Program-made: the position numbers and the translations under genes
Source: Prevotella sp.
Lineage (GTDB): Bacteria; Bacteroidota; Bacteroidia; Bacteroidales; Bacteroidaceae
Assembly (NCBI GenBank): GCA_017483185.1
Contig: JAFULM010000013.1
Coordinates: forward strand, 1-63,750
Reading direction: 5' to 3'
DNA: 63,750 bases
The notes under the pieces: generated by a model
What the model was told of the DNA's origin: nothing
Seen by the model: the letters and a program-made list of their open reading frames with translations, nothing else
Databases searched by the model: none
Shown: positions 25,694-43,992 of the stretch, piece by piece
How positions within the stretch are numbered: the first letter of the stretch is position 1
Layout of the letters: each line of letters opens with the position of its first letter

Positions 25694-27661
25694 ATGAGAA
25701 AAGATATATCAAACATTCTGATGACCGCCGCGTGTGCCGTACTGTTAGGTTGTGCCGGCATCGGACCAGGAGAAGGAACCTCGGTTGTCAACAAAGAGCT
25801 GATGCCCGTCAAGCAGGACGGCATCTGGGGATTTGCCGACCAGAAGGGATCCGTGGTGATCGAACCGGCGTTCAGTTCCGTCACACCTTTTGTCGACGGC
25901 CTCGCGGCAGTCTGCGTCAGCGGCGACGGAGATGAAACCGGCTGGGCGCTGATTGATATGGACGGCAATTACGTCGTGCGTCCCTCATACTCCGACCTGA
26001 CCGCGCCGTCGGAAGGCATCGTATGGGCTATGGACGGAGACGTAGTGACGGCACTTGACACGGACGGGAAAAAACTGTTTGAACTGCCTCAGGCCGACAT
26101 GGTCTGGGCCTACTCCGACGGTCTGGCCCGCTTCACATGTCCCGACAGCGTCGGCAACCGTGTCTATGGATTCGTCGACAAGAAAGGAAAGGTCGCCATC
26201 GAGTCAATCTTTGAAGACGCCGGCGATTTCGCCGATGGCGTGGCGGAGGTGAAGAAAGACGGCGAACGCTATTATATAGATAAGGAAGGAAACAACGCTT
26301 TCGGCGACCAGACGTTCAAGGCTTTTTCCGGATTTCGCGGCGGCCGGGCCACGGTCTTTATCGACAATAGCTCCAGTGTCTCCGGCGTGATTGACCGTGA
26401 CGGCAAACTCCTCTTCACCCAACCGGGCGTTCTGGTGGATGGCGGTGACGGCTACATTTATTACACAAAAGAGGGAACCGGATGGGTGGACAACAAGGGA
26501 GAAGTCGTGATAAAGCCCCAATTTGAAGCCATGCGTCCGTTCTATGACAATGACCTCGCTCCGTTCAAACTTGGTGATCGCAGCGGTTTCGTGGACCGCA
26601 GCGGACAAATCCGGCTCAATCCTCAGTGGGACGACGCAAGCTGTTTTGTCGACAACAACTTCGCTTACGTGGCCATCGGCGACAAGTGGGGGATGATTGA
26701 CCGCAACGGCAAATATTCAGTCAATCCCAAGTGGGAAGACGTGAGCATGGCATACGTGAACGGCTGCAACGGACAGTCCTACGTGGGAAGCGTGATGTCA
26801 GACTTCTATTTCGTGGATTGTGCCGCCGTAATCATCCGCAATTTCATCAAGGACGGCCGAATCGACGGATGGGACCTTAGCTGGACGGCCGAGGACATAG
26901 CCAAACACATCGGCATGAGCCGCTATATGTACGGGCGATACGGCCGCGAACATATGCTCAAACGTATGAAGATAGGGACATCCCAAGAGTCCGTCAACGC
27001 TCTGATATACCTGCGTGGAGAGTTCTTCAAGAACCAGACGGACAAGGCCTTCGCCCCGCTTGACTACGTCGAGGGCGTCAAACCCGACAACGTCATGATA
27101 CAATTTTGGCAGGACGACTACCGCGCGGACTGGTATAACAACCTGTTTATCAAACTCGAAACAATGCTTGGTCTCGAACATCACGCCGACGGACAGGGAC
27201 AATACGGCATCGGCAAGCTGGCCGGCCATCCGTTGCTCCTGAGCGAATTTGTCAGTCCGAATGTCGGAAGAAAAGGCGTTCAGATAGAGTTCGGCAAGGG
27301 CATATCGTTCCCTTCAGGCCTGACCGCCACCGAATCTTCTGACGCTGTCGACGACGGAGCCGGCGATGACTACGTGGAGGATACGACATACGAAGGCACC
27401 GTGGGCGATAGCCCCATCGTGATGGAACTCGGTTTCGGTGGCAACGGGACCATGTCCGGCCGCTATCGCTACAAATCCGAGCAAGGTTGGATAACCCTCT
27501 CCGGCACCAACGACGACGGAGTCATCGACCTCACGGAGACTGTCGACGGAAAAACCACCGGCTCCTTCTCGCTTGCCCTCAACGATTTCAGTCTCATGGG
27601 AACATGGACGGACAGCGGCAAGACAAAACTGCTGAAAGTGGAACTCCACAGCGCGGAATAG
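25694..27661 (+). CDS. WG-repeat lipoprotein
   Basis: This 655-residue protein has a lipoprotein signal (MRKDISNILMTAACAVLLGC). From about residue 35 to 360 it carries WG (KWG) repeats such as QDGIWGFADQKGSVVIEPAF, VYGFVDKKGKVAIES, GTGWVDNKGEVVIKPQF and KWGMIDRNGKYSVNPKW. A helical region follows (about 380-480), and a C-terminal beta domain (about 565-655) resembles lipocalin-like folds (MGTWTDSGKTKLLKVEL). WG proteins are surface or periplasmic with unproven roles, possibly carbohydrate or protein binding. It is the last gene of the operon; the hairpin at 27758 is the likely end. Confidence 0.8.
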   Translation: MRKDISNILMTAACAVLLGCAGIGPGEGTSVVNKELMPVKQDGIWGFADQKGSVVIEPAFSSVTPFVDGLAAVCVSGDGDETGWALIDMDGNYVVRPSYSDLTAPSEGIVWAMDGDVVTALDTDGKKLFELPQADMVWAYSDGLARFTCPDSVGNRVYGFVDKKGKVAIESIFEDAGDFADGVAEVKKDGERYYIDKEGNNAFGDQTFKAFSGFRGGRATVFIDNSSSVSGVIDRDGKLLFTQPGVLVDGGDGYIYYTKEGTGWVDNKGEVVIKPQFEAMRPFYDNDLAPFKLGDRSGFVDRSGQIRLNPQWDDASCFVDNNFAYVAIGDKWGMIDRNGKYSVNPKWEDVSMAYVNGCNGQSYVGSVMSDFYFVDCAAVIIRNFIKDGRIDGWDLSWTAEDIAKHIGMSRYMYGRYGREHMLKRMKIGTSQESVNALIYLRGEFFKNQTDKAFAPLDYVEGVKPDNVMIQFWQDDYRADWYNNLFIKLETMLGLEHHADGQGQYGIGKLAGHPLLLSEFVSPNVGRKGVQIEFGKGISFPSGLTATESSDAVDDGAGDDYVEDTTYEGTVGDSPIVMELGFGGNGTMSGRYRYKSEQGWITLSGTNDDGVIDLTETVDGKTTGSFSLALNDFSLMGTWTDSGKTKLLKVELHSAE

Positions 27662-27799: not shown

Positions 27800-28600
27800 T
27801 TCTGTTTGCGGCCTGTCATACCCCTTTGTGAAAATCCGGCCGTCCGATGTCCTGATTTTTCCTGTTTTCAAGCCCGCGAGAGTGGGGACTTTCTGAAAAA
27901 ATTCCGCCGCGCCTCCAAATATTGCAACCACGCGCGTATCAAAAATCACGGGTCTCCGTGACGATATATTTACACATTTCGTAAATTGCTCATTCATAGC
28001 CACATACAAAAGGCCGTGCGTCCGTCGTCGTTCGGCGGAGCCGCGACCGTTCTGCCGTAAGGCCCTTACGGCGTTGCAATAGCGGCCTTATGGCTTTGCA
28101 ACGAGCGCCCCGTTGCACTCCCATAACGGCCCCGTTGTGACCCCGCGGGGGCCTTACGGCAAGAAAACGGTAACGTTTCGTGACAAAAATCCTCATCACA
28201 AACCTCCGAAAATCTTCGCTCCTGAAAAGCCGCGGGGCCCTCCCGGCAGGTCGAAGACGCAAAAATGCGTCCGTCGCCGCATTTGCGTCAAAAGCAAAGA
28301 GGCCCTTACGGCCACACAAAAGCCTCCGAAACGAGCAAAACCACGACTTTTTCAGAACAGAGTTTTGTAAAATAAAATACCTGTTTGACGTTTGGTGTGG
28401 CATGGTTGTTAAAAGGATATATAGGACATTTGGCTGTATGACTCATAAGAGTTTTAAATGGTAATGTGTCAGCAAAAGTGCAGCGATGGCTAAGCCGGAC
28501 ATAGTAAATCATACTTTTGAAAAGGAATAATGAGTATTTTGTTGACACTCTGTCTGTTAGAAATAGTGGTAGAAATTCAATCAAGTTTTTATTAGGAGAT
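27800..28600. other. Intergenic region with GC-rich element, no gene seen
   Basis: This stretch has no convincing gene. It contains a family C element (about 28045-28162: GCCGTAAGGCCC, GTTGCAATAGCGGCC, GGGGCCTTACGGCAAG) and a second GC-rich run at 28235-28315 (GCGGGGCCCTCCCGGC ... GGCCCTTACGGCC). Base composition turns AT-rich from about 28340, where the island begins. Confidence 0.65.
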
Positions 28601-28602
28601 AA

Positions 28603-28634
28603 TTGTGATATTTTACAAATATTTCCTATATTTG
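28603..28634 (+). promoter_or_regulatory. Promoter of the 6S-like RNA
   Basis: TTG at 28603-28605 and TATATTTG at 28627-28634 fit the Bacteroidetes -33/-7 pattern. Transcription is expected to begin near 28640. Confidence 0.6.
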
Positions 28635-28639
28635 CAGTT

Positions 28640-28857
28640 GGTTAGAGGCAACTCTTTCCAAGACATACTAAAAAATAAGAGGCGTTATGCTTATCTTGTA
28701 GTCGAGAACCTGAGAAATTTGAGACAAGTATACAAGGATTTGCATAGTGGTTCTCACGCTATAGCGTGGGCTGCTATTACTACATCTGTATACTTTGGGT
28801 TTTCTCAGGACCTTCGACTAAGACGTGGCATAGCATTCCACGCTTTTTTTATATGTG
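28640..28857 (+). ncRNA. ssrS: 6S RNA-like structured RNA
   Basis: No protein frame fits. The RNA folds into one long interrupted rod: 28699-28705 (TAGTCGA) pairs with 28814-28820, 28709-28717 (CCTGAGAAA) with 28801-28809, and 28726-28734 (AAGTATACA) with 28787-28795. A symmetrical open bubble of about 9 by 9 bases follows (28735-28743 / 28778-28786), then 28744-28747 pairs with 28774-28777, and a CACGC-TATA-GCGTG hairpin closes the end. The outer TATGC/GCATA pairing and a terminator hairpin (CGTGGCATAGCATTCCACG then T7) complete it. A rod with a central bubble is the hallmark of 6S RNA, which binds sigma-70-type RNA polymerase. The exact 5' end is uncertain. Confidence 0.7.
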
Positions 28858-28887
28858 TTTGAGAATAGTGATTTAAAATTATATAGT

Positions 28888-29463
28888 ATGAATAAGCAAA
28901 AGAATTTTTCGAGAACACGAATGAAACATCCGGGTTCTTTGATTGGAAAGTTAACAGTACTTTCAATTTTCGCTATTTTGTTGCCGATGGGGTGCATGGC
29001 TAAGGGACAAAAGAAGGAGAAGATTGCAAAGGGTGTCAAGATTGAGCTTGCTGATTCTGTTTCACGAAAAGCGATGAATGACAGTGTGTATGTCATTCTG
29101 ATGAATGGAAAAATCAAGTCGATGCTGATGGACTGCGACGGTAAATGTAGCGAAGTGAAATATCTCGCACGTGAAGATTGTCATTTATTACGTTTCCTGA
29201 TAACGGATCCGAAGTTGTATTTGGGAGATACAAAAGTTTATGGGAAGATGATGCCCTGCATAAGATTCGAATTTCAGAAAGTGAAAGACGGCTCCATTTA
29301 TATGAATCTTGATTTTGGATTAGGTAAATGGACATTGACCGATATGTCCGGCAAAGTGTTGTATAGATCAAGTCTTTCGACCAACGGTATGCTTCGCTTT
29401 TGCCATGAGCTGTATCCGCAGAACGAACTGATAAAGAACCACTATAATTCTAAGGTAAAATGA
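28888..29463 (+). CDS. Hypothetical exported protein, first gene of the caspase operon
   Basis: This 191-residue protein has a positively charged N-terminus and a hydrophobic segment (LIGKLTVLSIFAILLPMGCMA), consistent with export; the Cys could be lipidated although the lipobox is imperfect. The mature part looks like an all-beta domain (DSVYVILMNGKIKSMLMDCD ... GKWTLTDMSGKVLYRSS). I recognise no family. I use the ATG at 28888 because the in-frame start at 28855 lies inside the terminator of the RNA just upstream. Its stop overlaps the caspase gene start (ATGA). Confidence 0.65.
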   Translation: MNKQKNFSRTRMKHPGSLIGKLTVLSIFAILLPMGCMAKGQKKEKIAKGVKIELADSVSRKAMNDSVYVILMNGKIKSMLMDCDGKCSEVKYLAREDCHLLRFLITDPKLYLGDTKVYGKMMPCIRFEFQKVKDGSIYMNLDFGLGKWTLTDMSGKVLYRSSLSTNGMLRFCHELYPQNELIKNHYNSKVK

Positions 29464-30674
29464 TAAAGAAACTGATGTTTATATTTGTTTTGTCATTCAC
29501 ATTGATGACAGACATTCAAGCCAAAACCATACATTGGCTTACGTTCATAGACACTACTGATAAAGGTAATGGCATAGATAACAGTGGAGTGGGTGAAGCC
29601 GACAAGAATACCCGTAGACTATTGTATTCTCGTTGGATAGACGTTGTCAATGCTTCTCTCAAAGACAATGGCTACAACATAAACACGATAGACATGTATG
29701 ATGGCAACGCTACTCCGGAAAACTGTAAAGCGATAGTAGAGTCTTTGGACTGCGATACTTCGGACATCGTCGTATTCTATTATGTCGGTCATGGAACAGA
29801 GAATACGGGGAAAAGCCGTTTCCCTTTGCTGTTGTTTGAGAATGGGTCACATGACAGACTTATCCCATTATCGTGGATTCATAATACGCTAAAGGAGAAA
29901 GGCGTAAAACTTACCATTACAATAGGAATGTGCTGCAATGATCGCCAGGGTGCAACCGGTCGGACTATGCCTACATTCAGTAGAAATTATGGTAAGGCGT
30001 TTATCAATAATGGAGCGACAGAGGCTGTGAAAGAAATGTTTCTTGACTGCAAGGGAGACCTTCTCGTGACTTCGGCTTCTCCAACAGAAAGCTCTCGGGG
30101 ATGTGATTCTGCGTTGGGAGAAACGGATATTTTCACACTGCACTTTCTAAGCCAGTTTACAAATATCACTTCCGGCAAGGCTGAAGCCGATTGGCAAAAG
30201 ATGCTTGAGGCAGTGAAGAAAAACGTGTATAATGACGTGAAAAATAGTGACGAAGTACAAAAAAAACAACCGGGGGCGACACAAACGCCAATATGGGAAA
30301 ACAATCTGACATCGACAAGCAGACCCAGAGGGACAAAGCCTACGATGCCTAAAGTTTCAGGAGGGAATAACGATAAGTCAGAATACATCAGTATGCTTAA
30401 TGATGCCTTTGCTTATATAACTTCAAGTAATGTTGATGCAATGGAACGTATCAGGTGCGCTGATAAGACGAAGCCTCTTTTTGCCGGTGGCTTAATAGTG
30501 AAAGTACTTACTCAAGATGGAAATACGGTTGTGGAAAGAATACCGATAGAAAAGTATCTTGGCCGCATAAGCACCAATCGTATGTACCAAAATGTGTCGG
30601 TGGCAGATTTGGAATTGGATAATGGTAAGGTCAATTCTTTGTATGTCCGGGAAGTCTTAAAATCAAGAAAATAA
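29460..30674 (+). CDS. Exported caspase-like (peptidase C14) protein 1
   Basis: This 404-residue protein has a signal peptide (MIKKLMFIFVLSFTLMTDIQA) followed by a caspase/metacaspase domain (about 22-245). The catalytic pair is visible as His111 in VVFYYVGHGTEN and Cys159 in LTITIGMCCND; hydrophobic strands precede each, as in the fold. An additional domain of about 110 residues (295-404) follows a linker rich in polar residues; I do not recognise it. Export of a caspase-fold protease, as in clostripain/gingipain relatives, suggests action outside the cytoplasm. The start overlaps the upstream stop by four bases, implying coupled translation. Confidence 0.8.
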   Translation: MIKKLMFIFVLSFTLMTDIQAKTIHWLTFIDTTDKGNGIDNSGVGEADKNTRRLLYSRWIDVVNASLKDNGYNINTIDMYDGNATPENCKAIVESLDCDTSDIVVFYYVGHGTENTGKSRFPLLLFENGSHDRLIPLSWIHNTLKEKGVKLTITIGMCCNDRQGATGRTMPTFSRNYGKAFINNGATEAVKEMFLDCKGDLLVTSASPTESSRGCDSALGETDIFTLHFLSQFTNITSGKAEADWQKMLEAVKKNVYNDVKNSDEVQKKQPGATQTPIWENNLTSTSRPRGTKPTMPKVSGGNNDKSEYISMLNDAFAYITSSNVDAMERIRCADKTKPLFAGGLIVKVLTQDGNTVVERIPIEKYLGRISTNRMYQNVSVADLELDNGKVNSLYVREVLKSRK

Positions 30675-30694
30675 ATTTTTTAAAATAATATACA

Positions 30695-31333
30695 ATGAAA
30701 ATAATCAGAACATTAATCCTTTGTGCCGTCGTTTTAATATCCACAAATGTTTCGGCACAAGATGAAGATAAATACGAGTCGTTGAAACAACATGCAAAAG
30801 AAAAAGTGAAAATGCTGAATGACTACATATCCTATCTCGCTGACCCTTCATTCGACAAAAGGACAAAAAACATTTATAAAGAAGAGGCAGAGTACTTGTT
30901 TATAAACTCATGCGGTCCGTATGAGGAAAAGGTTGAATACAGGAATGGTAGTGTCAGGAGTATCATGCACGATGGTGTCACGATGGAAGTTTCCTCGGTA
31001 AAGAATAAAACACCACGTACAAAGCCGATGAAGGCATATTTCAACGGGTTGATTTATCTCTCCAATGTTTATAAAGCGGTCACCATTGAAACAACGGACA
31101 TTGCAGACATACAGGTGTCTAAATTGATAAAACGCCCTGATGGAAAGTACGAGTGTGCTGTTTATTTCGACCAAACATTTATAGGCAGACGAGGGGATGG
31201 CAGCACATACGCAGACATCACCCGCAAGTGGGTCATCTGTCATATTGAAGAGATTGAGACTTTGGATGGTACGGAATACGACACGAAGTTAGGTGATGTG
31301 CATGTAATTTCAACGGAAAGGATTTTCTTATGA
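30695..31333 (+). CDS. Hypothetical exported protein
   Basis: This 212-residue protein has a clear signal peptide (MKIIRTLILCAVVLISTNVSA, cut before QDED). The mature part starts with a helical stretch (KVKMLNDYISYLADPSFD) followed by beta strands with an ADITRKWVICHIEEIE segment. Overall it resembles the helix-plus-sheet arrangement of NTF2-like domains, as does the next gene product; this fold guess is an inference. It lies 20 bases after caspase 1, and its stop overlaps the next start. Confidence 0.65.
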   Translation: MKIIRTLILCAVVLISTNVSAQDEDKYESLKQHAKEKVKMLNDYISYLADPSFDKRTKNIYKEEAEYLFINSCGPYEEKVEYRNGSVRSIMHDGVTMEVSSVKNKTPRTKPMKAYFNGLIYLSNVYKAVTIETTDIADIQVSKLIKRPDGKYECAVYFDQTFIGRRGDGSTYADITRKWVICHIEEIETLDGTEYDTKLGDVHVISTERIFL

Positions 31334-32136
31334 GTAGGGTGTTTGCGTTGCTTTTCCTCATAGTGGGGTGCTGTAATATTGTATCTATACAGGCACAACT
31401 GATAAAGACCTTGGATAGAGACCGATATCTGGCAAAAGTGAAACTTGTCGATGAGTTCTTCTGCCGTTTTAACGGACAAGAGTCTCGACAGGATGTCAAT
31501 GCCCAATATAAGGACAGAGAATCTTCTATATTGCTGCTGTTTGATTTAGCAAAATTCAAATCAAAATCAGATAGTGGTTTTGTTAAAGCCATGACATTTG
31601 CAAAAGATGTGGTTGAAGATAGTGTTTTTATAAACTATGAGGATGGGAAATGGTTTGCGAAAGTGAAATGTGCAGCTATCCTCAACAAGAAGCCCACAGA
31701 GTTCATAACTTTCTTAACCGTAGAGAATGTAAGAGACAGCGTATACAAATGGGTTATATCGAATGTAGATGGTGACATATTTAAAACATCACGCGACAAT
31801 CCGCATGAGGAACTATATATATCGCCCAACTCGCATGAACTGTTCTTCTCTTCATTGCGCAATGTAACCAAGGATGCTTACGAGTTTATAGATGACTATA
31901 CACGAAAGTCATTCAAAACGGACAAACTTTCAGTTTTCACGACATTGGTAAGGAGTGGACAGCTCAAGATAGATGCCGTAAGTGATTTGGATTTTGTGTT
32001 CACACAAGTGCCGGGGTATATTTTTACCATAAGGCATTTTGAAAGAGAAACTAAAAATGCAGGATGGTTGATAGACACACTGAGAGTCGTTTCGGAAGAG
32101 GAAAAGAATAATTTGAAAAAAGAAATATTACGATGA
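31330..32136 (+). CDS. Hypothetical exported protein, possibly NTF2-like
   Basis: This 268-residue protein has a signal peptide (MSRVFALLFLIVGCCNIVSIQA). After it, KVKLVDEFFCRFNGQESRQD begins a helix-sheet domain with strands KWFAKVKCAAIL and VYKWVISNVDGDIF, compatible with an NTF2-like fold. A second part (about 165-268) is different and unrecognised. It has ATGA overlaps with both neighbouring genes, so the three products (30695, 31330, 32133) are probably made in similar amounts. Confidence 0.65.
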   Translation: MSRVFALLFLIVGCCNIVSIQAQLIKTLDRDRYLAKVKLVDEFFCRFNGQESRQDVNAQYKDRESSILLLFDLAKFKSKSDSGFVKAMTFAKDVVEDSVFINYEDGKWFAKVKCAAILNKKPTEFITFLTVENVRDSVYKWVISNVDGDIFKTSRDNPHEELYISPNSHELFFSSLRNVTKDAYEFIDDYTRKSFKTDKLSVFTTLVRSGQLKIDAVSDLDFVFTQVPGYIFTIRHFERETKNAGWLIDTLRVVSEEEKNNLKKEILR

Positions 32137-33284
32137 ACAAAGCAAGATTACTACTGATTATACTATTGACCGTTTATGTTGACGCTTTCGCTATGACAAG
32201 CAGTGAAATGATAGTCCAACGTTTTGGAAATAATATGGAACAATGGTGTAAAACAAAAAATATAGACTACCGTCAGGCCGCATTGAAAGATTGCCACTAT
32301 AATAGTGAAACAAAGAAAGATTGTCACCATAATAGTGAAACAAAGAAGGATTGTATGGTGATGGATTATTTGATGGATGTTGAAGCGCAAAAGAGCGGTC
32401 TGTCAAACAACCATTATGTCATTCAGGACTATTTGCATGTATTCCAAAACGCTTTAAGGTCGGGAAATACATCATTCCGTATGTATAATATTGAAGAAAT
32501 ACCATACGGGTCGATAAAGATAGAAAACTATTCGTCAAGAAAGGCATCTTTGGCAAAGACATTGACCTATGTCTCCTGTGATATTGATGTAAGCGGAGCA
32601 TTGAACTATAAGTTAAAGAATCTGTTCATCATAAGTGATGAAGGTAAAATATGGGAGATTGAGTCCCGTAAAGAAAGAGTCAACCAAAGAACAGGTAAGA
32701 AGAGATTCCTTGTCAATATTGATAAGTTAGTTGAAGAAGATGAAACAATTGGCTTTTCTTACAACTATGGCCAACATTTCCCAGTGGGCGGTTCTTTCAA
32801 TTATTCTTTAGAAAGAATTCCTCTTATGTTAAGTGTAGACTTCGGAATAAATCTGGATGGAGACAAATATGTTCTTGACAAGGTCGAAATGACGGATATA
32901 ATGCATTTTGACAGAACAAAGAAGGTGCGCGATCCTAAATTCTTCTTGACGGTTACGCCACAGCTCTACTTTAGATATTTTGCAATAGGATGCGGTGTGG
33001 GATTTCTGTATATGGATGGAACCAAATATGATATATCAAATGATATAGACATATCCAGTTCATCGTCGGCTGGTTTTGCCTCTTCATCGGAACATGTTTC
33101 GGTTGAAGCAGGTGAAGAGGCAAATTGTCCTCTGCTCAAACCCATGATACGTCCAGTAGCCAAAGGATTTGTTCCTTTGAATGATGAAATGTATATATCA
33201 GTAAGTGTTGGCTATGATTTGATTTTTGGCTATAAAGAAAAAAACGGCTTAAACTTTGGACTTGGCCTTCAGTGGAAATTATAA
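32133..33284 (+). CDS. Hypothetical outer membrane protein with tandem decapeptide
   Basis: This 383-residue protein has a signal peptide (MNKARLLLIILLTVYVDAFA). The N-terminal half contains two tandem decapeptides, KDCHYNSETK and KDCHHNSETK, encoded by a 30-base direct repeat at about 32287-32346. The C-terminal part (about 200-383) has alternating strands with aromatic residues (FSYNYGQHFPVGGSFNYS, FGYKEKNGLNFGLGLQWKL), typical of an outer membrane beta-barrel. It may anchor or export products of the operon; that is inference. It overlaps the upstream gene by four bases. Confidence 0.65.
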   Translation: MNKARLLLIILLTVYVDAFAMTSSEMIVQRFGNNMEQWCKTKNIDYRQAALKDCHYNSETKKDCHHNSETKKDCMVMDYLMDVEAQKSGLSNNHYVIQDYLHVFQNALRSGNTSFRMYNIEEIPYGSIKIENYSSRKASLAKTLTYVSCDIDVSGALNYKLKNLFIISDEGKIWEIESRKERVNQRTGKKRFLVNIDKLVEEDETIGFSYNYGQHFPVGGSFNYSLERIPLMLSVDFGINLDGDKYVLDKVEMTDIMHFDRTKKVRDPKFFLTVTPQLYFRYFAIGCGVGFLYMDGTKYDISNDIDISSSSSAGFASSSEHVSVEAGEEANCPLLKPMIRPVAKGFVPLNDEMYISVSVGYDLIFGYKEKNGLNFGLGLQWKL

Positions 33285-33304
33285 ATATCTAAAAAGCACC
33301 GATT

Positions 33305-34351
33305 ATGAAAATACATAATATGACAATAAGCAAATATATTTTGTGCATCATTATGTCGTTTACACTCTTTTCGTGCGAAGATGATAATGTCGGCGAATTT
33401 GTGCTTACGGGAAACGTTGAGCATCTTATTCCTGACGGCTCGTATGACTTGAGGAAAACTATAGCAGATGATGGACAACAGATTGTTTTTACTCCCAAAT
33501 TCCATTCGCAGTTTGAATATTGGGGGTTGGCATTAAGGCAGGTGGAATATTATATGGATGATGCTCTGTATGAGAAGGAGACCCAACCGCCTTTTGAACT
33601 CATGATAAGTGGGAAAGACGTGGAGGCAGGCGGTCACAAATTGGTGGCGAAGATGACTGTTGCCGGTGAGGCCTGTGATGATGTCATTCTTGAAAAAGAA
33701 TGTGTCTTTTACAAACATACCGACGGAATAATGTCCGAGAACCCCGAGACTCCTAAATCTCGTGGAGATTTCTATATAAATTATAACTATGTTACGAAAG
33801 GTGATGAACTTGTCATAATACCGGAGTTACTCGTTGACCGTTCGAGTGAGGGGTGCGAGATAGACAAGGTGGACTATTATTGGGACGGCATGTTGATTTC
33901 GACTTCAACATCCTCTCCATTCGGACTTAGATATAGGGTAGAAGAGGAGATCGGAAGTGCTCATGACATAAGAGTCGCAATAGCTTATCATGATAATTTC
34001 TCACAGAATCTTACTTGTGGCTGGAGCTATTCCAAATATACAATTTGCTCATCAGATGATTACATGGGTACAATGAATATCAAGTCTAATCGCAGTGATT
34101 ATAAAAATGGCGAGACCGTTTCGTTGATAGCTAAATTGTTTAGAGGTCCTAATGTAAAAGAGGATTTTGAGGTGAGATTCTATTTTGATGACCAGCTTAT
34201 CGGAAAATCCGCCTCTTTTCCGTACACATTGGATTATAAATTGGAGAAGTTGCCAATAGGTAGCCATACGATAAAAGGAATAATGAGCTCCAAAGGTGAC
34301 GGTTCCACTTCGAACAAATCAATAGAAGAAACAATCATTATAACAGAATAG
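33305..34351 (+). CDS. Lipoprotein with three Ig-like repeats
   Basis: This 348-residue protein has a lipoprotein signal (ISKYILCIIMSFTLFSCEDD). Three homologous beta-sandwich units follow, recognisable by VEYYMDDALYEKETQPPFEL, VDYYWDGMLISTSTSSPFGL and VRFYFDDQLIGKSASFPYTL, each closed by a G-x-H-x-I/L strand (GGHKLVAKM, SAHDIRVAI, GSHTIKGIM). These match the bacterial Ig-like pattern of a D-G-x-L-I-G hairpin. The domain usually serves as a stalk or binding module at the cell surface. It lies 20 bases after the barrel protein gene and two bases before the next gene. Confidence 0.75.
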   Translation: MKIHNMTISKYILCIIMSFTLFSCEDDNVGEFVLTGNVEHLIPDGSYDLRKTIADDGQQIVFTPKFHSQFEYWGLALRQVEYYMDDALYEKETQPPFELMISGKDVEAGGHKLVAKMTVAGEACDDVILEKECVFYKHTDGIMSENPETPKSRGDFYINYNYVTKGDELVIIPELLVDRSSEGCEIDKVDYYWDGMLISTSTSSPFGLRYRVEEEIGSAHDIRVAIAYHDNFSQNLTCGWSYSKYTICSSDDYMGTMNIKSNRSDYKNGETVSLIAKLFRGPNVKEDFEVRFYFDDQLIGKSASFPYTLDYKLEKLPIGSHTIKGIMSSKGDGSTSNKSIEETIIITE

Positions 34352-34353
34352 GT

Positions 34354-34899
34354 ATGAAAAAGTCGTTTTGCATTTTGCTCTTTTTGGGATTGCTGTTTTA
34401 TAGTAAACATGCGTCATGTTCCAATGTCTTAGACAATGGGATAGATGCGGATTCTTCGATAGTGTCGAATAACTATATTGGTATTATCGAAAGTGCAGAC
34501 TCTATTGTGTGGTATTTGTTGGATCCGATGAATGTGGATTCTATGAGTTTGGACTCTACGAGTGTGAATAAAGGAGGAGAAATACTTCTTTGTCAGACGG
34601 ATACATTGCGAGAAAGGTACAATGCTCTGAAGACCACCTTGTGTTATCCACAGTCTTTTGTAAAAAGCGACATGGTGAAAAATTGTACTTTCCTTCCAGA
34701 TGTTGCCGTTTGCTTCTTCTCGGGAAAAGATGTTGTGACATTCTCCTATTCTTTTTATTGTGATGTGTGTCGTTTTGAAAAGGATGGAAAATATCAAGAC
34801 ATGGACGGAGAATTGATTAGGAAAGCCATCATCCAAATGGCATGTGAAAATTTTCCTAAAGACAGATATTTGAGAAATCTAAAAAGAAAACAGAAATGA
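34354..34899 (+). CDS. Hypothetical exported protein
   Basis: This 181-residue protein has a signal peptide (MKKSFCILLFLGLLFYSKHASC); the Cys at its end could be a cleavage-adjacent residue or a lipidation site. The mature part is Asp/Ser-rich at the start (ADSSIVSNNYIGIIESADSI) and contains four further Cys residues. No family is recognised. It starts two bases after the Ig-like lipoprotein and overlaps the second caspase gene by four bases. Confidence 0.65.
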   Translation: MKKSFCILLFLGLLFYSKHASCSNVLDNGIDADSSIVSNNYIGIIESADSIVWYLLDPMNVDSMSLDSTSVNKGGEILLCQTDTLRERYNALKTTLCYPQSFVKSDMVKNCTFLPDVAVCFFSGKDVVTFSYSFYCDVCRFEKDGKYQDMDGELIRKAIIQMACENFPKDRYLRNLKRKQK

Positions 34900-36098
34900 G
34901 AAATATATTATTTGTATTTATATTATGTATCTCCTTTGCCGATATAGTCTCTGCCCAAACAATGCATTCGATTATATTCGCAAATATGGAAGAGCAAGGA
35001 CGTGAGGTGGACCGTACGGCAGAGATGCGGAATATGACCGAATTTTGCAACATGGTTGCGTCGTCACTTGGCTATAGTCATGATTTGCGCCGACATAGCG
35101 GACGTGAGTTTACATCAGTAATGCTTGAAAGAGAAATTGCTTCGTTGAATGTCAATGACGATGATATTGTTTTGTTCTATTATGACGGTCATGGATGTAA
35201 TTGGGATGATGATGATTGGCCACACATGGCTCTGCTTGACAAACAATATTGGGCAACTACTGCTTACAATAAGTTGAAAGCAGTGAGTAAAAGAGCGAAA
35301 CTCCTTCTTTGCATAGCAAGTTGTTGCAACATGGATTCTGAGGGACAACGCAGAGCAAGTAATAACTATGCTTTATCTACAATAGATAGGGACAAGGTGC
35401 GTAAGTTGTTTACCGGATTTCGCGGAAGACGTTCTATTATAACATCGGCAAGTATACGTGGGCAATATTCTTGGAGTTGGACTGGTGGAATTACACCGGG
35501 ATCTCAATATACGATAAGTTTGAGAAAGGTGATAAAAGACGCTGTGTCCGGTGCTTCAAACACAGAATTGACATGGGAGAGTATTTTGAAAGCTACAGAG
35601 AAACAAACATTGGCGTATTCAGAAGGGAAACAATTACCGCAGTTTAAAATAGAAGAAAATGCCGGTACCTCAGCAATCACGAGAACAACAGTTTCTACCA
35701 AACAAATAGCGTCGTCTGCTGATATTGAGAATGTATGGGTTGAACATAACATGATGTTGAATGGTGTTAAGTGTATGGTAATTCATGTGAGATTCAAGAC
35801 ACATTATATGAACGAACAAGGTGGAAGGCTTGTGGCATTTTTTGATAGTCCGAAAGGGGTTGGTTTGCGTGATACCAACGGACGCTACAGAACGGTAGAT
35901 GGAAATGTATGCGTAGGGTCTGATTTCGGTTCTCACTATGAACATTCACTTTTTGAGGATCTGAAACTTGTCATGCCTAACTCTGAAATTCATCCGAAAC
36001 AAGGGACGAAAACCTATTATATCAGAGCTTTTGTGTATGATTTCAAACAAGGGAAATATATAGCAAATAGTGATTTCATATCATTTAATATGCAATGA
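34896..36098 (+). CDS. Exported caspase-like (peptidase C14) protein 2
   Basis: This 400-residue protein has a signal peptide (MRNILFVFILCISFADIVSA). The caspase domain spans about 22-235 with His99 in IVLFYYDGHGCNW and Cys144 in LLLCIASCCNMDS. The C-terminal domain (about 270-400) differs from that of caspase 1 and looks like a beta-sandwich (GVKCMVIHVRFKTHYMNEQG ... YYIRAFVYDFKQGKY). The two proteases are distant paralogues at opposite ends of the operon, with different tails, suggesting different targets or localisation. The start overlaps the upstream stop (ATGA). Confidence 0.8.
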   Translation: MRNILFVFILCISFADIVSAQTMHSIIFANMEEQGREVDRTAEMRNMTEFCNMVASSLGYSHDLRRHSGREFTSVMLEREIASLNVNDDDIVLFYYDGHGCNWDDDDWPHMALLDKQYWATTAYNKLKAVSKRAKLLLCIASCCNMDSEGQRRASNNYALSTIDRDKVRKLFTGFRGRRSIITSASIRGQYSWSWTGGITPGSQYTISLRKVIKDAVSGASNTELTWESILKATEKQTLAYSEGKQLPQFKIEENAGTSAITRTTVSTKQIASSADIENVWVEHNMMLNGVKCMVIHVRFKTHYMNEQGGRLVAFFDSPKGVGLRDTNGRYRTVDGNVCVGSDFGSHYEHSLFEDLKLVMPNSEIHPKQGTKTYYIRAFVYDFKQGKYIANSDFISFNMQ

Positions 36099-36140
36099 CA
36101 TGATATCAAGATTTAATAAACATAATTAAATACACGCTTT

Positions 36141-38540
36141 ATGAGAACAAGTTACAAGAAAAGCCTAATTAAGCGATTTTCCATGTTCTACTTCGTTGGA
36201 TTTCTTACATTATTAAATGTATGTGCAGAACCAACGGATCCTAATGTAATAAAGAAAGTCAAATTGAGTGACGGAAAAATTGTTTCATTGCGTTTGCGTG
36301 GTGATGAATATGCCCATTTTTGGATAAATAATAAAGATGGAAAAAAATACCAGCAATTAAAGGAAGATGTTTGGAAACAATTGGAAGAGAGGGATGTTTC
36401 TAATATGCTGAAAGAAGCAAAAAAGAAGCGGACGGAAAGTTCTGATTATTTGTCTGTAAAAAAGATAACTAAGGGGATGACCGGATTAAAAAGAGTTCCG
36501 GTTATTCTTGTAGAATTCACTGATGTTAAGTTTGAGAAGGGACATGATGAAATGTTATTTGATAGACTATTGAATGAGCCTGGATATAAAGAAGGGCGTT
36601 TGGTAGGTAGTGTAAGAGATTATTTTCTTGCCCAAAGCAACGGGTTGTTAGACCTGCAATTTGACGTTGCAGGGCCTGTCACGTTATCTAACAGCATGTC
36701 ATACTATGCCGGAGAAGATGGTTATGAACATTGTGGTGAGATGGCGATGGAGGCATGTCGCCTTGTGGATGATTATGTTGATTTCTCACAATATGACTGG
36801 GATGGCGATGGTATGGTTAATCAGGTCTTTCTGATTTATGCGGGTCACAGCCAATCGACAAGCGGCAATAAGGAAGATATATGGGCTCATAAAGGTCGGG
36901 TCTCAAACCGTATGGTTCAAGATGGGATGATTATATATGATTATGCCTGTTCTCCGGAGTTGCGTTCTGTTCAAAATGAGAATGTCATTGAAGGAATAGG
37001 TACATTTTGTCATGAGTTCTCACATTGTCTCGGCCTTCCTGATATGTATGACGGAACAAACGAAAACTATGGAACCGGGAATTGGGATCTTATGGGCACT
37101 GGATGTCACAATGGAAACGGATATATACCAGCCGGGTATACTGCATTCGACAAAATGTACATGGGGTGGCAAGAACCGATAGTCTTGAATGAATATTCAG
37201 AAGTGACATCAATGCGTCCGATGAGTGAAGGTGGCGATTTTTATCTTATTCCTAATGATAATTGTGAAAATGAATATTATCTGCTGGAGAATCGTCAAAA
37301 AACAGGTTGGGACACAGAACTTCCGGGGCATGGTATGCTTATAACACATATAGACTATGACGAGTATTTGTTCGGCAAGAATATTGTTAACAGAACAGGC
37401 ATAGATGGGAATGATCATGAAAGATGCGGAATCGTTCTCGCGGATAATGACAAAACAATAAACTTCAGTAATTATTACGAGTATCTCAAAGATTTGCAGG
37501 GAGACCTTTGGCCATACGAATCGAATAATAGCTTGACTAATACTTCTGTTCCTGCTGCTACATTATTCAATAGAAATATTGACGGCTCATATTTATTGAA
37601 CAAACCTGTAACGTCAATAATGGAAAATGGAGATGGAACCATGAGCTTTGTTTTCAATAATGACTTTATCGGGAATCCCGATAATTGTTATTTGACTTGT
37701 AGAAATGACACGCTCAGGTTTAGCTCAGCATCAAGCGTAGAATATAAGATTACAATATCAAATAAGTCTTATGTAGATTACAACCGTCCAATAGAAGCCC
37801 ATCTTTATAAATATGTGGATGGGAATGTCATGGAAGTGGGGCACGATATTATAACGACGAATTTGGGACAAGGTGAAGAAAGTGATTTTGTCTTTAATGT
37901 TGGCGGACTTAGTGGAACGGATCAACTATACATAACTGTGGAATATTATGACAGCAAGGATTCGCAGGTCAGAACCAAATTATGTGAAAAGGATTTTTGT
38001 CTTGAAGATATAGACAAATTTAATGTTTCTGTTGAAGATCATAATTTGTTTATAACGTCAAAAAACAGTATCCAACTTGATATTATTGCTCACAATGAGT
38101 CCTACTATGATTTTACGACAGGCATAGGTGTGTATATATATACAGATGGGGATTCCAAGGCAGTGAAAGGTCTGACATTAAAGGACCCGATACCATCTTA
38201 TGGCTCAAAACGTTTTGTGTTTGATTTTGATGGCTTGGAGGAGAATGTTGTTTATCATGCCAATGTGTACGCAGCAAAGATGAATGAAGCTGTTGATGGA
38301 CATTGGAGCTTTCTCAATGAAAGATATTATTTTGTAATCAATGACTATACAATAACTAATATAAATACGGCCGATAGCAGGAAATACAGTTTTGACGATG
38401 AAAGGATGTGTTTGTATTCCATTGATGGAAGACAATTGGAAACTGTTGATGGCCGTTCTGTAAAAAAGATTAAGAACAAGGGCGTATATATTATCAAATC
38501 ATTAAAAAGTGGTGAAACAAAGAAGATTGTTATAAATTGA
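36141..38540 (+). CDS. M6-family metalloprotease with T9SS sorting tail
   Basis: This 799-residue protein resembles immune inhibitor A-type M6 peptidases. After a signal sequence (about 1-30), the catalytic domain carries VPVILVEFTDVKF, VRDYFLAQSNGLLDLQFDVAGPV and the zinc site FCHEFSHCLGLPDMYDG (His291-Glu-x-x-His295). Downstream are NWDLMGTGCH and two beta-domains. The last 85 residues are a type A sorting tail (CLYSIDGRQLETVDGR, NKGVYIIKSLKSGETKK), so secretion through the type IX system is likely. It begins 42 bases after caspase 2 and ends at a long hairpin, so it probably belongs to the same operon. Confidence 0.87.
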   Translation: MRTSYKKSLIKRFSMFYFVGFLTLLNVCAEPTDPNVIKKVKLSDGKIVSLRLRGDEYAHFWINNKDGKKYQQLKEDVWKQLEERDVSNMLKEAKKKRTESSDYLSVKKITKGMTGLKRVPVILVEFTDVKFEKGHDEMLFDRLLNEPGYKEGRLVGSVRDYFLAQSNGLLDLQFDVAGPVTLSNSMSYYAGEDGYEHCGEMAMEACRLVDDYVDFSQYDWDGDGMVNQVFLIYAGHSQSTSGNKEDIWAHKGRVSNRMVQDGMIIYDYACSPELRSVQNENVIEGIGTFCHEFSHCLGLPDMYDGTNENYGTGNWDLMGTGCHNGNGYIPAGYTAFDKMYMGWQEPIVLNEYSEVTSMRPMSEGGDFYLIPNDNCENEYYLLENRQKTGWDTELPGHGMLITHIDYDEYLFGKNIVNRTGIDGNDHERCGIVLADNDKTINFSNYYEYLKDLQGDLWPYESNNSLTNTSVPAATLFNRNIDGSYLLNKPVTSIMENGDGTMSFVFNNDFIGNPDNCYLTCRNDTLRFSSASSVEYKITISNKSYVDYNRPIEAHLYKYVDGNVMEVGHDIITTNLGQGEESDFVFNVGGLSGTDQLYITVEYYDSKDSQVRTKLCEKDFCLEDIDKFNVSVEDHNLFITSKNSIQLDIIAHNESYYDFTTGIGVYIYTDGDSKAVKGLTLKDPIPSYGSKRFVFDFDGLEENVVYHANVYAAKMNEAVDGHWSFLNERYYFVINDYTITNINTADSRKYSFDDERMCLYSIDGRQLETVDGRSVKKIKNKGVYIIKSLKSGETKKIVIN

Positions 38541-38549
38541 TCATTGAAA

Positions 38550-38607
38550 AGAGACCTTACTCCGCCGAAACAATTAAACTTGCTATAATTGTTCCGGTGG
38601 AGAAGGT
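38550..38607. terminator. Long hairpin closing the protease operon
   Basis: AGACCTTACTCCGCCGAAAC and its near-complement GTTCCGGTGGAGAAGGTCT form an imperfect stem of about 24 bp. It lies right after the M6 protease stop codon and fits a terminator role, though the following T run is short. Confidence 0.55.
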
Positions 38608-38669
38608 CTATTCGGCATGTATAAAACAAAGCGAATCTCGTGCAATACATCAATCTTTTAAAATAAACC

Positions 38670-38700
38670 TTTGTGGACATTCTTTTTGTTTGTAACTTTG
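38670..38700 (+). promoter_or_regulatory. Consensus promoter of the NADAR gene
   Basis: TTTG (38670-38673), 19 bases, TAACTTTG (38693-38700): an exact fit to the Bacteroidetes primary promoter consensus. In the leader, CTACTTA (38752-38758) and TAAGTAG (38767-38773) form an inverted repeat, a possible operator or hairpin. Confidence 0.75.
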
Positions 38701-38810
38701 TCATGTGTCAGAAAAACTTATCTGATTTGTTTTGCGGCACAAAACTAAGTACTACTTATAAATAACTAAGTAGCGAATTTTAAGGTAACAAGTAAATCTG
38801 TTGTATTGCG

Positions 38811-39830
38811 ATGAAGCATAATAAACAAAACTTGATAAATGCTTGCAATGCATTTGTGCGAGATGATTTCGTGTTCTTTTGGAAGCACACTGATATGGAA
38901 AAGGGTGTTGGCAAATCTTGTCTGAGTCAGTGGTATATGTGCTCATTTGTGGTAGATGACGTATGTTACAACTGCGCCGAGCAATATATGATGGCAGAGA
39001 AGGCTCGCATCTTTGGTGATAAGGACGCATGGCATCAGATTATGGTATCGTATGACCCGATGACAATAAAGAAGTTGGGCAGAAAGGTGAGGAACTTCAA
39101 TGCTTATGTGTGGAAGAAAAACTGTCAGGAGGTAGTCAAGAAAGGCAATATTGCTAAATTTTCTCAAAATCCAAAGCTGAAGGAATACCTGTTTGGAACT
39201 GGCGACAAAATCTTGGTTGAAGCATCATCCAAAGATATCATCTGGGGCATCGGATTGGCAGAAGATGCTATAGAGGCTTGTAATCCATGTCTCTGGCATG
39301 GGGAAAACCTGCTTGGCTTTACGCTGATGGAGGTGAGAGATGTGCTAAGAGGAAAGGTGGAAGAATCGGAGAACGATGTGAAGAAAACTTTGCTTATGTG
39401 GACTTTGGGTGCAGGCAATTCTGCCCGTCGATACAGTTTTGAAGATCCTATGCCGCGGAAAACAGAAGTAGCAACGGTATGGGGAGAACCATTATCTCAG
39501 TTCGTTTCCGTGTCTCAGGATTTTTATCTCACTGCTCAACAAATGGATGTAATCAGATATGGACATATACCTGACGCTATGGAGGACCATTGGTATATGT
39601 ATTGTGACGATAATGCCATTCACTACCTCCGAAGTTGGACAGGGTTTCATTTTGCCGAAGCTATTTACGAGAAGTGTGGGGACGGGTATCGTATTACAGA
39701 GTTGCGTTTGAACAACAATCCCAATGAATATGAGTTTGGTAGCGAGGATGCTGTCATAGCATTGTTTTATGCCTTGCTTATAAGCGAATACGGTGGTGAT
39801 GCCTCGGCATATTGGAAAGCGGCAATTTAG
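38811..39830 (+). CDS. NADAR-domain protein fused to an unknown C-terminal domain
   Basis: This 339-residue cytoplasmic protein has no signal peptide. Residues about 15-185 form a NADAR (YbiA/DUF1768) domain with the motifs SQWYMCSFVVDD, YNCAEQYMMAEKARIFGD, KEYLFGTGDKILVEASSKD and IIWGIGLAEDA. NADAR proteins cleave N-glycosidic bonds of ADP-ribose compounds, and some remove ADP-ribose from guanine in nucleic acids. Residues about 200-339 (AMEDHWYMYCDDNAIHYLRSW, TELRLNNNPNEYEF) form a separate domain I cannot name. It has its own promoter. A role in NAD/ADP-ribose-based conflict is plausible but inferred. Confidence 0.8.
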   Translation: MKHNKQNLINACNAFVRDDFVFFWKHTDMEKGVGKSCLSQWYMCSFVVDDVCYNCAEQYMMAEKARIFGDKDAWHQIMVSYDPMTIKKLGRKVRNFNAYVWKKNCQEVVKKGNIAKFSQNPKLKEYLFGTGDKILVEASSKDIIWGIGLAEDAIEACNPCLWHGENLLGFTLMEVRDVLRGKVEESENDVKKTLLMWTLGAGNSARRYSFEDPMPRKTEVATVWGEPLSQFVSVSQDFYLTAQQMDVIRYGHIPDAMEDHWYMYCDDNAIHYLRSWTGFHFAEAIYEKCGDGYRITELRLNNNPNEYEFGSEDAVIALFYALLISEYGGDASAYWKAAI

Positions 39831-39854
39831 TATTTGTTCTACTTGTTTGTAAAT

Positions 39855-40499
39855 ATGTCGCAAATGAAGAATTGTATATTTGGGTTGTTATTACTCTGTG
39901 CGTTTTCCATACTGATTGGTAGTTGCAAGAGGAGTGGCTCCACGATCTCATCAATATCTGAAAAGGGAAGGGCTGCTGTGCCGGTTATCTGTGTATATAC
40001 GATAGGTGATGTCCGTGAAGAGTTAAAGGAGGCCATGATGGATTCTCTTAGGAATTATTATCCCAAATGCAGGATGGCCGGCAATATCCAATTACCTGAT
40101 GTTGCTCTTACGACTAAACGGAAAGACCATAGACGGTATAGAGCAGACCTCTTGAACGAGGTGCTTTGTAAATACAAGTCCGATTCAACAATTGTCATTG
40201 GACTTACTCAGGCAGACATTGGGCTTGACAATTTCCGAGGCCGTGCCCATAGCGGAATAATGGGACTTGCCAGCGGTATCGGAACAGGCGTGGCTGTATT
40301 CTCTTCCTATCGTCCTCATGGTAATGGTCAGATGTTCTGTGTAATGCTTCATGAAATAGGTCATGCTCAAGGCTTACGGCACTGTTCTGATACAAAATGT
40401 ATGATGCAGAATGCTAATGGCGGCAATCCTTTCAGCAAAACAAATGTATTCTGCGACAAGTGCAAGAACTATATGAAATCCAAATCTTGGAGGCTATGA
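39855..40499 (+). CDS. Archaemetzincin-like zinc metallopeptidase, lipoprotein
   Basis: This 214-residue protein has a lipoprotein signal (CIFGLLLLCAFSILIGSC). The zinc motif is HEIGHAQGLRHC, followed by SDTKCMMQ and a C-terminal FCDKC: the archaemetzincin pattern with the extra four-Cys zinc site. Archaemetzincins are usually cytoplasmic and of unknown substrate, so lipid anchoring is notable. I place the start at MSQMKN (39855) because the upstream in-frame codons from 39834 would put a hydrophobic stretch before the signal. It follows the NADAR gene by only 24 bases, so co-transcription is likely. Confidence 0.78.
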   Translation: MSQMKNCIFGLLLLCAFSILIGSCKRSGSTISSISEKGRAAVPVICVYTIGDVREELKEAMMDSLRNYYPKCRMAGNIQLPDVALTTKRKDHRRYRADLLNEVLCKYKSDSTIVIGLTQADIGLDNFRGRAHSGIMGLASGIGTGVAVFSSYRPHGNGQMFCVMLHEIGHAQGLRHCSDTKCMMQNANGGNPFSKTNVFCDKCKNYMKSKSWRL

Positions 40500-40579
40500 T
40501 GGCTTCTACTATTGAAAAACTGCTATTGAAAAACTGAAACCCTTTGCAAAAGCGAAAGTACGGACCGTTTGCACACAAT

Positions 40580-40731
40580 CAGGCTGTGTGATAGACGTCT
40601 ATTCCATATCCGGTGCGCATCTGACGAAAGACACCGTTACGCTCAACAGCGCCGCAGCTGCCGGTGTCTATGTCATCAAGGCAACAGCCGCCGACGGCAC
40701 GGTGGCATCAGCAAAGATGGTCATCCGATAA
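40580..40731 (+). pseudogene. Fragment of a T9SS C-terminal tail gene
   Basis: The frame reads CVIDVYSISGAHLTKDTV and then ends in ADGTVASAKMVIR, nearly identical to the end of the 1219-residue T9SS protein (19606-23265), with a short deletion after the LTK. Homology continues past the stop codon, through the terminator hairpin, to about 40846 (matching 23110-23388). Upstream codons (AIEKLKPFAKAKVRTVCTQS) do not match and an in-frame TGA lies just before them. It is a duplicated gene end without the rest of its gene, in the same orientation as the parent. Confidence 0.8.
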
Positions 40732-41123
40732 ACGTCGGTACGACTGTCTTATAAGTATGGAAATGGGGATTCTCTTGAGTCCCCATCTCTTGTTTTCATA
40801 CGCCTCCTCGTTGTCTTTGCCGATTCTCTTGTGGCGGAGTGTGGGGTGAGTTAATAGTATAAGGGAATGTATGAAAATTGCTCCATGATTGGAAATCTAC
40901 TTCCAAGGGGGTGAGGATTTCGGATTTTATCGCTATCTTTGCCATGTCTGTTACGGTTTCCTTTATCTTTGGATTCGCAAACTGAGATAAGTGAAAACTC
41001 TAATATGGCAAAATTCTGGGCCGCTCAGTTCTGCTGCTTGCATAAGCAAGAACATTTTGCTGCATAAGAACTTATATAAAATAATTATTAATTAAGTTGC
41101 GGAATAAAGGTTTTACAACTTAA
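40732..41123. other. Intergenic region, no gene seen
   Basis: It begins with the duplicated terminator (about 40757-40790) of the T9SS fragment, then AT-rich DNA without a convincing gene. The possible lost first exon-equivalent of the AbiC-like gene would have lain at its right end. Confidence 0.55.
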
Positions 41124-41942
41124 CGGTTTGGAGATACAATTGGAGGAATAACCGCTCCGTTTTTTGCAATATGTTCTATATATGTTACTTTTTTAGCATT
41201 TTGGATTCAGTATAAATTTAATTCAGCTCAGAAAACAGATCTTGATAAAGAGCGATTCGAACACAATTTCTTTTCTTATCTTGACGTATTAATGCGACAA
41301 GAGCAAGGGTGTGCTCTTGAAAATGTAGGATTTGGCAAACAAGTGTTCCACTATATGTTCTACGAATATAAAGCTATCTATAACATTGTTCACACGGGTA
41401 AATATTTAAAAGCTGTGACAGATTTAACGGAGCGCAGGAACGAGGAATTCAATCTGTGCTATTCTATTTTTATAAATGGGGTAAGCAAAGGTTCAACTTA
41501 TCGTTTGAATAAAGAGGTTGCGGAAGCATGCAAACCCGATGTTCTGTCATTAAATAGGAAACTATTGAATATTCAAAAAGAAATTCTGAATGGAGAGCGA
41601 AAGAGATATCCTAAATACTTAAGAGACTATGAGAGACAAAGAATAAAAATGTTTGATGGACATAGGCTTCGATTGATTTCCTATTTCAGAATGTCGTGCA
41701 TGGTTCTTCAATACATCAATACAGAAGATGAGTGTAAACGTGATTTCTACATCAATGTGTGCTTATCTCATTTTTCAGAACATCAATTGGGGCTATTGCT
41801 GCTGATGATGAATCAAGACGAGTTTGAAAGCAAGGTTTTTATTGATAATAAAGTTAAGGATTTCTTTAATAGTAACTTATTTAGAAATCGCTATCTTCCT
41901 GCTGAGACGATGCGATATAATGATGAAAAATTTATTGGGTAG
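41124..41942 (+). pseudogene. 5'-truncated AbiC-like phage abortive infection protein
   Basis: The open frame runs from an in-frame TAA at 41121. Its first part reads FGDTIGGITAPFFAICSIYV and then a second hydrophobic stretch (TFLAFWIQYKFNSAQ), followed by DLDKERFEHNFFSYLDVL. This transmembrane-then-KERFExxFF arrangement matches putative AbiC proteins, which begin with two membrane helices. There is no start codon for the first part; the first ATG is at 41292, after the membrane segment. The first helix and start codon appear to be lost, so the gene is probably inactive, or it uses a rare start. The family call is by pattern only. Confidence 0.5.
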
Positions 41943-42464: not shown

Positions 42465-42494
42465 TTTATAATTCGGGATTTTTATATACATTTG
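42465..42494 (+). promoter_or_regulatory. Probable fic promoter
   Basis: TTTA (42465-42468) and TACATTTG (42487-42494), 18 bases apart. The expected transcription start is almost at the ATG (42506), giving a nearly leaderless mRNA. Confidence 0.55.
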
Positions 42495-42505
42495 CGTTGG
42501 AGATT

Positions 42506-43891: not shown

Positions 43892-43923
43892 TTTGGAAGA
43901 TACGTAAATATGTTGTAATTTTG
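43892..43923 (+). promoter_or_regulatory. rpsU promoter
   Basis: TTTG (43892-43895) and TAATTTTG (43916-43923) with a 20-base spacer. The leader to the rpsU ATG is about 60 bases. Confidence 0.65.
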
Positions 43924-43992
43924 CACCCGCATTTTGTGGCCCTGTGCCCGAAGCATAAGTTTAATTAATTAAAAATTTAAAACCAAAAACAA

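Follow-up and report, generated by a model that had tools for sequence, protein, structure and literature searches.

In the window analysed here, i.e. the 63,750-nucleotide (nt) forward-strand stretch of contig JAFULM010000013.1 from a Prevotella sp. (assembly GCA_017483185.1), eight neighbouring genes encode a set of exported proteins that includes two caspase homologues, termed CaspA and CaspB. Genes 1-8 recur as one unit in another species, and we tentatively suggest, at somewhat less than even chances, that they are accessory genes, probably acquired by horizontal transfer, for an extracytoplasmic caspase assembly whose members would be joined by a shared domain and in which each caspase would have a dedicated partner. 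Loci and genomes used for comparison are given by their working numbers (L and G, respectively).

The original prediction had combined nine open reading frames (ORFs) into one operon, and all nine are located at the claimed place, 28888..38540. They are co-directional and start with ATG in every case, and the junctions from gene 1 to gene 9 measure -4, 20, -4, -4, 20, 2, -4 and 42 bases, which bears out the tight spacing (ATGA overlaps or gaps of 2-42 bases) described before. All nine products have a hydrophobic N-terminal stretch, with 10-residue Kyte-Doolittle maxima of 2.16 to 3.26, so that the export signals claimed for the whole set are found again, as judged by an ad hoc hydropathy rule, not a signal-peptide program. 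No Bacteroides-type promoter match was found upstream of gene 1, and sigma-70 matches in the region are about as frequent as expected by chance (42 vs 36).

Gene 1 (28888..29463; plus strand, as all nine genes) overlaps the gene for CaspA by 4 nt and encodes its exported putative partner, a member of a new family that also contains gene 7 (orthologue in Xylanibacter muris, 33%). Gene 2 (29460..30674) encodes CaspA, an exported C14 caspase homologue with a C-terminal domain (approximately residues 302-400) for which an NTF2-like fold is predicted. The exported product of gene 3 (30695..31333) and the CaspA C-terminus are assigned to one domain family, and gene 4 (31330..32136), which adjoins gene 3, encodes an exported protein of another new family. 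In the exported product of gene 5 (32133..33284; X. muris orthologue, 43%) the N-terminus possibly belongs to the shared domain family and the C-terminal half appears barrel-like by eye. Gene 6 (33305..34351; X. muris orthologue, 56%) had been described as a three-Ig lipoprotein; Ig domains are confirmed in two Big_7 stretches (Pfam E 6e-13), and the lipobox, LFSC, was assigned by eye. Gene 7 (34354..34899; X. muris, 69%) encodes the exported putative partner of CaspB and overlaps the gene for CaspB, gene 8 (34896..36098; X. muris, 59%), by 4 nt; CaspB is likewise an exported C14 caspase homologue, with a C-terminal domain unlike that of CaspA. Genes 1, 3, 4, 5 and 7 gave weak matches only and no convincing one in Pfam, NCBIfam or PADLOC. 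Members searched one by one against Pfam gave a best E of 0.035 for gene 4 (nine members, none convincing) and of 0.0019 for gene 3 (11 members), the latter to DUF4988 in a single member, and among PDB sequences nothing fell below E 0.1 for gene 4, gene 3 or the partner.

Both CaspA and CaspB are, by sequence, homologues of the caspases of peptidase family C14 and predicted proteases. They score 28.2 and 35.1 bits, respectively, against Pfam Peptidase_C14 (PF00656; cut-off 21.4), and caspase structures top the lists of both the fold and the sequence search. The catalytic dyads named earlier, His111/Cys159 in CaspA and His99/Cys144 in CaspB, are correct, with GHG and CCN motifs in both proteins, and the check on their conservation, proposed at the same time, found the His in 19 and the Cys in 20 of 20 aligned caspases; the caspase of L099 has no catalytic His. 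The residue preceding the Cys-Cys pair is Asp in 12 of the 20 sequences and Met and Ser in the two from the window. In metacaspases an acidic residue at this position is tied to a preference for basic P1 residues, and since Met and Ser replace Asp, the P1 preference of the window caspases may have shifted. The genome of the window contains a third C14 caspase (G000:C22:29914-30600), which is closer to the Pfam model (76 bits). Protein kinase genes lie near caspases of the CaspA/CaspB type at L090:6346-7971 (with MORN repeats) and L087:6191-7792, and in L044 and L045 (G081 and G141) two exported caspases flank a thioredoxin-like gene beside coaBC-like and recN-like genes (named by eye), relatives of which are situated near the X. 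muris operon.

In X. muris (G033) genes 1-8 occur in identical order with 32-66% identity (BLAST), flanked by genes resembling ssb and dnaN and with no M6 gene beside them. As this second operon has genes 1-8 without the M6 gene, the unit comprises eight genes, not nine, i.e. the original prediction is supported as a grouping for genes 1-8 but not for gene 9 (36141..38540). Gene 9 encodes an exported M6 metalloprotease, as had been stated (TIGR03296 197 bits, cut-off 110.8; the HExxH motif is visible as HEFSHCLGLPD). Its proposed dependence on the type IX secretion system (T9SS) is unconfirmed: no NCBIfam sorting-domain model matched at E<=1, and the gene is absent from the 11 places in the genome with a match to PF18962 (Por_Secre_tail, E<=1). 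It is favoured by the tail, which resembles a sorting domain by eye, and by a T9SS-dependent M6-like model that covers residues 287-387 with 41 of 600 bits, far under its cut-off. M6 relatives are present in 9 of 10 genomes of the same genus, the window's included, and convincing caspase matches in two of them (G000 and G033), with a weak match to the CaspB tail, interrupted by an internal stop, in G150. The M6 gene was therefore rejected as part of the system and is regarded as a neighbour.

Beyond X. muris the set is patchy. A family-level search of 151 genomes found relatives of CaspB in 12 and of CaspA in 10, the window's genome included, and a scan of genome contigs gave one locus, that of X. 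muris. With a CaspA profile built from three sequences, matches at E<=1e-3 were obtained in 52 of 393 Bacteroidales genomes, near full-length in 8 of the 52 and in many others over the active-site region only, and 20 further places were fetched and read after this search. A caspase, gene 3 and gene 4 occur together in 10 loci from 9 genomes with 7 family labels (the window, X. muris, L083, L084, L085, L086, L088, L089, L090 and L099). The upstream partner is present in six of these (the window, X. muris, L084, L085, L086 and L088); L083 and L089 lack it near a contig end, and L090 and L099 have other genes in its place. The genes are thus not scattered in related genomes, a check suggested along with the original prediction. 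L043 shows a barrel-like gene, a lipoprotein, a partner, a caspase and gene 3 before its contig ends, and L087 has a partner and a caspase only, gene 3 and gene 4 of the same genome (G495) being located in a cluster with a leucine-rich repeat (LRR) protein, L156. When the 10 loci are compared pairwise, the identities obtained for the caspase, for gene 3 and for gene 4 agree with each other (r 0.66-0.79; 0 of 2000 permutations in each case), an agreement that includes species relatedness. Searches of plasmids with gene 4 and of phages with CaspA gave no match at E 1e-3.

Profile comparisons indicate that gene 1 and gene 7, both of which immediately precede a caspase gene, are distant paralogues and form part of a single new family. 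The gene 1 set matches the partners of L043, L084, L086, L087 and L088 (hhalign E 2e-8, signal peptides excluded), these five match the first half of the L095 partner (1e-5), and that half matches the gene 7 set (4e-7). As the gene 7 set holds the second half of the same L095 protein, the latter looks like a tandem repeat. A further link leads to L092 (8e-6), and 6 of 10 pairs of partner sets fall below 1e-3. A partner profile from which gene 7 had been left out still detected it at 1e-6, and the profile A12 picked up partners absent from it in L085 (6e-7), L092 (6e-8) and L095 (3e-5). When alignments of two or three rows were compared directly, neither gene 1 and gene 7 nor gene 7 and other partners were significantly linked. 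Among 37 caspase-model ORFs (caspase profile E<1e-8, in the loci fetched by that stage) 12 are immediately preceded by a partner and 11 immediately followed by gene 3; as the loci were chosen as best matches and the partner sets first picked by position, these counts are a description, not a test. The A12 profile matched 8 of 393 genomes, four strongly, all being its own rows, and four weakly; since it has no strong match outside its own rows, this type of partner appears to be rare or fast-diverging. The gene upstream of the L049 caspase was considered as a partner and rejected, as it gave no match. At L092:2752-6881 three consecutive caspase-model ORFs share one upstream partner gene.

The feature that would connect the members of the set is a domain that CaspA carries at its C-terminus and that, according to alignment comparisons, has homologues in gene 3 and in segments of further exported proteins. 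By hhalign, the gene 3 set matches the C-termini of CaspA-type caspases (E 7.5e-6), the N-termini of barrel-like proteins (4.6e-6), the C-termini of lipoprotein-like proteins (4.2e-5) and the N-termini of LRR proteins (3e-4). Of 1,045 control comparisons four were below 1e-3, all from two control sets that consist of those same barrel-like proteins, and the next lowest value was 0.0024. The N-terminus of gene 5 is weakly linked to those of the barrel-like proteins (7e-4). With two- or three-row alignments gene 3 matched neither gene 4, gene 5 nor CaspA significantly, and larger sets linked some of these only. As the full-length CaspA model has a mean pLDDT of only 49.7, the C-terminal domain was modelled alone (pLDDT 91.3). 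NTF2-like and ketosteroid isomerase structures top both structure-match lists for this model, with moderate scores, and the domain is thus a candidate for an NTF2-like fold; neither gene 3 nor the CaspA tail has a convincing sequence match to a Pfam or PDB family. NTF2-like domains often dimerise. The protein encoded at L085:1533-2828 has a gene-5-like N-terminus and is similar to that of L083:3455-4774, which in turn matches an exported WG-repeat protein of the window (25694-27661; PF14903), just upstream of the low-GC island described below.

Gene 3 and gene 4 also form a cluster of their own, so far undescribed and free of caspases. A gene 4 profile (A10) matched 80 of 393 Bacteroidales genomes, 8 of which are the source of its rows, and 20 further loci were read outside the genomes that had given rows. 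Gene 3 adjoins gene 4 in 19 of them (in L154 by a six-frame check), the exception being L158, where gene 4 is close to the edge of the contig. In 18 loci there is a large protein that resembles the one of L142, with repeats that are LRRs by Pfam in the three members scanned, and in 17 a lipoprotein-like protein. The fetched stretch contains no caspase-model ORF in 19 of the 20 loci, 18 of these 19 having gene 3; only L141 has one, with the motif DACFSG and beside two barrel-like proteins. A broader gene 4 profile, run on 395 genomes sampled from the phylum, gave matches in 9, among them the genome of the window; two of the 9 are weak. Five of the seven loci read show the same four-gene cluster outside the order. 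Its arrangement, lipoprotein-like gene, gene 3, gene 4 and LRR gene, recurs in L142-L157, L159, L160 and L177-L181, with the first gene missing in L157.

Based on these observations we propose that the shared domains may bind each other and gene 4, assembling, either periplasmically or at the outer membrane, into a complex that would be anchored by the lipoprotein (gene 6) and the barrel-like protein (gene 5). CaspA could dock on this complex via its C-terminal tail; a different mode of recruitment is required for CaspB, which lacks an NTF2-like tail. The partner, synthesised immediately ahead of each caspase, may bind that caspase and keep it inactive or folded until an envelope signal frees it, which would finally result in the cleavage of envelope or foreign proteins. 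A wider version of this proposal, possible and more speculative, is an undescribed envelope machine of Bacteroidota, in which an NTF2-like adaptor family plugs a caspase, an outer-membrane barrel, an LRR protein or a lipoprotein anchor into a common gene 3-gene 4 scaffold; the result would be a complex outside the cytoplasm that senses ligands and loads caspases, with one dedicated regulator per caspase.

Rather than building a larger complex, genes 1 and 7, perhaps together with gene 3 and gene 4, might be inhibitors only, which shield the cell from its own secreted caspases, the latter digesting external proteins as food. The C10 proteases of B. fragilis with their adjacent inhibitors are an analogue, one partner lies directly upstream of each of the two caspases, and C10-like proteases occur beside exported caspases at L046:1084-2805 (SpeB-type by eye) and L050:1659-3341 (similar to that of L046). 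Genes 1 and 7 may be cognate inhibitors, but as the stretch fetched contains no caspase-model ORF in 19 of the 20 further gene 4 loci, a role of gene 3 and gene 4 solely as caspase inhibitors is unlikely and was rejected, and the shared domain is fused to CaspA itself. We thus consider a protease-inhibitor set without a larger complex rather unlikely.

Slightly less probable still is a system of envelope sensing or defence, in which barrel, Ig, LRR or WG modules would sense phage or envelope damage and the caspase would kill the cell or cut the invader. Such a role would fit the patchy distribution of the caspase set and its location on an island (window 28400-44000), on which the operon and the M6 gene are accompanied by NADAR, M54-like, AbiC-like and Fic genes. 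The GC content drops from approximately 0.54 to 0.39 near 28.4 kb and stays low until about 44 kb, after which come a XerD-like gene, named by eye, and clustered tRNA genes. Of the 10 loci compared, 7 have a cluster with a GC content below that of both flanks (X. muris, L084, L085, L086, L087, L088 and L099); this is not the case in L083, L090 and the window, where the right flank, also part of the island, is equally low. The low GC content is an indirect sign, compatible with horizontal transfer. The NADAR-family gene (38811-39830; Pfam 178 bits) matches PADLOC PDC-M42C with E 2e-45 and is preceded by a Bacteroides-type promoter match (38670-38700) located after gene 9. Beside it lies the M54-like metalloprotease gene (39834-40499; PF07998 E 5e-7), whose product has an export-type N-terminus by eye, and the AbiC-like gene scores 21.2 bits against PF16872, slightly under the cut-off of 22. 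Genes 1-9 themselves, however, gave only two weak PADLOC matches (E 0.004 and 0.02), and the neighbours at other loci are different genes, by eye often core genes.

An exported toxin set directed against other bacteria, complete with immunity proteins, is a distinctly poor candidate. Caspase toxins and NTF2-fold immunity proteins are known in polymorphic toxin systems, as described in the available part of PMC3482391, but the operon contains no trafficking domain, repeat or delivery gene by Pfam, the caspase and the shared domain are joined in one protein, and gene 3-gene 4 pairs without a caspase are widespread; the interbacterial weapon that the original prediction had considered finds no positive evidence here. 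Finally, a chance succession of genes for secreted proteins on the island, with genes 1-9 having no function in common, is hardly credible and was rejected for genes 1-8, since these have the same order in X. muris amid other neighbours and their core recurs in other families, even if the M6 gene illustrates that an unrelated exported gene can adjoin the set.

Several known systems resemble parts of this set. Gingipains and clostripains belong to other peptidase families (C25 and C11), and no such model matched CaspA or CaspB at E<=1 in Pfam or NCBIfam. They are nevertheless alike in being secreted caspase-fold cysteine proteases of clan CD (both are named in the available part of PMC3482391). 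A survey of prokaryotic caspases, as far as its accessible passages go, lists 46 sequences with a single N-terminal helix, possibly a signal peptide, and mentions operons that encode two or more metacaspases in groups that include Bacteroidetes (PMC3501461). The surveyed homologues thus share the C14 domain and the export-type N-terminus with CaspA and CaspB, whereas the partner family, the gene 3-gene 4 pair and the shared domain are not in these passages and 'NTF2' is absent from the main text (PMC3501461). Effector-associated-domain systems, in the portions available of PMC7159879, are similar in that one small domain occurs both in a core protein and, by fusion, in an effector, for instance a caspase, but they have MoxR-vWA, GTPase or EACC1 components, none of which turned up by Pfam or NCBIfam (EACC1 not being searched by name) in genes 1-9, whose products differ further in their export-type N-termini. 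In the EACC1-caspase pair of the same source the 5' gene encodes EACC1 and one conserved transmembrane helix (PMC7159879). The genes upstream of the window caspases belong to the partner family, with export-type N-termini and weak or no Pfam/NCBIfam matches, and an assignment to the EACC1-caspase system was rejected, as the caspases score 23.7 and 15.6 bits against NF047832 (cut-off 140). The NTF2-like superfamily itself resembles the CaspA C-terminal domain in predicted fold, without a convincing sequence match. In the libraries and the literature searched, the latter including the available parts of PMC3501461, PMC7159879, PMC3482391 and PMC8195603 and covering neither most subscription papers nor bioRxiv preprints, no system with such a composition is described, in line with the earlier statement. 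We therefore regard the composition of the exported caspase set as categorically new.

Bacterial caspase homologues are best known from work on cytoplasmic suicide and immunity. That some of these homologues are exported is already known, as the accessible parts of the survey indicate (PMC3501461). The set also points to protein families for which Pfam gave no convincing entry, namely the partner, the gene 3 domain and gene 4, although gene 4 occurs in 80 of the 393 Bacteroidales genomes sampled. If our reading is true, genes 1-8 represent a different use of the caspase fold, i.e. a conserved group of exported proteins that have a domain in common and provide each caspase with its own partner, and they would offer a tractable way to examine how proteases of this kind are restrained and set free in an extracytoplasmic compartment.

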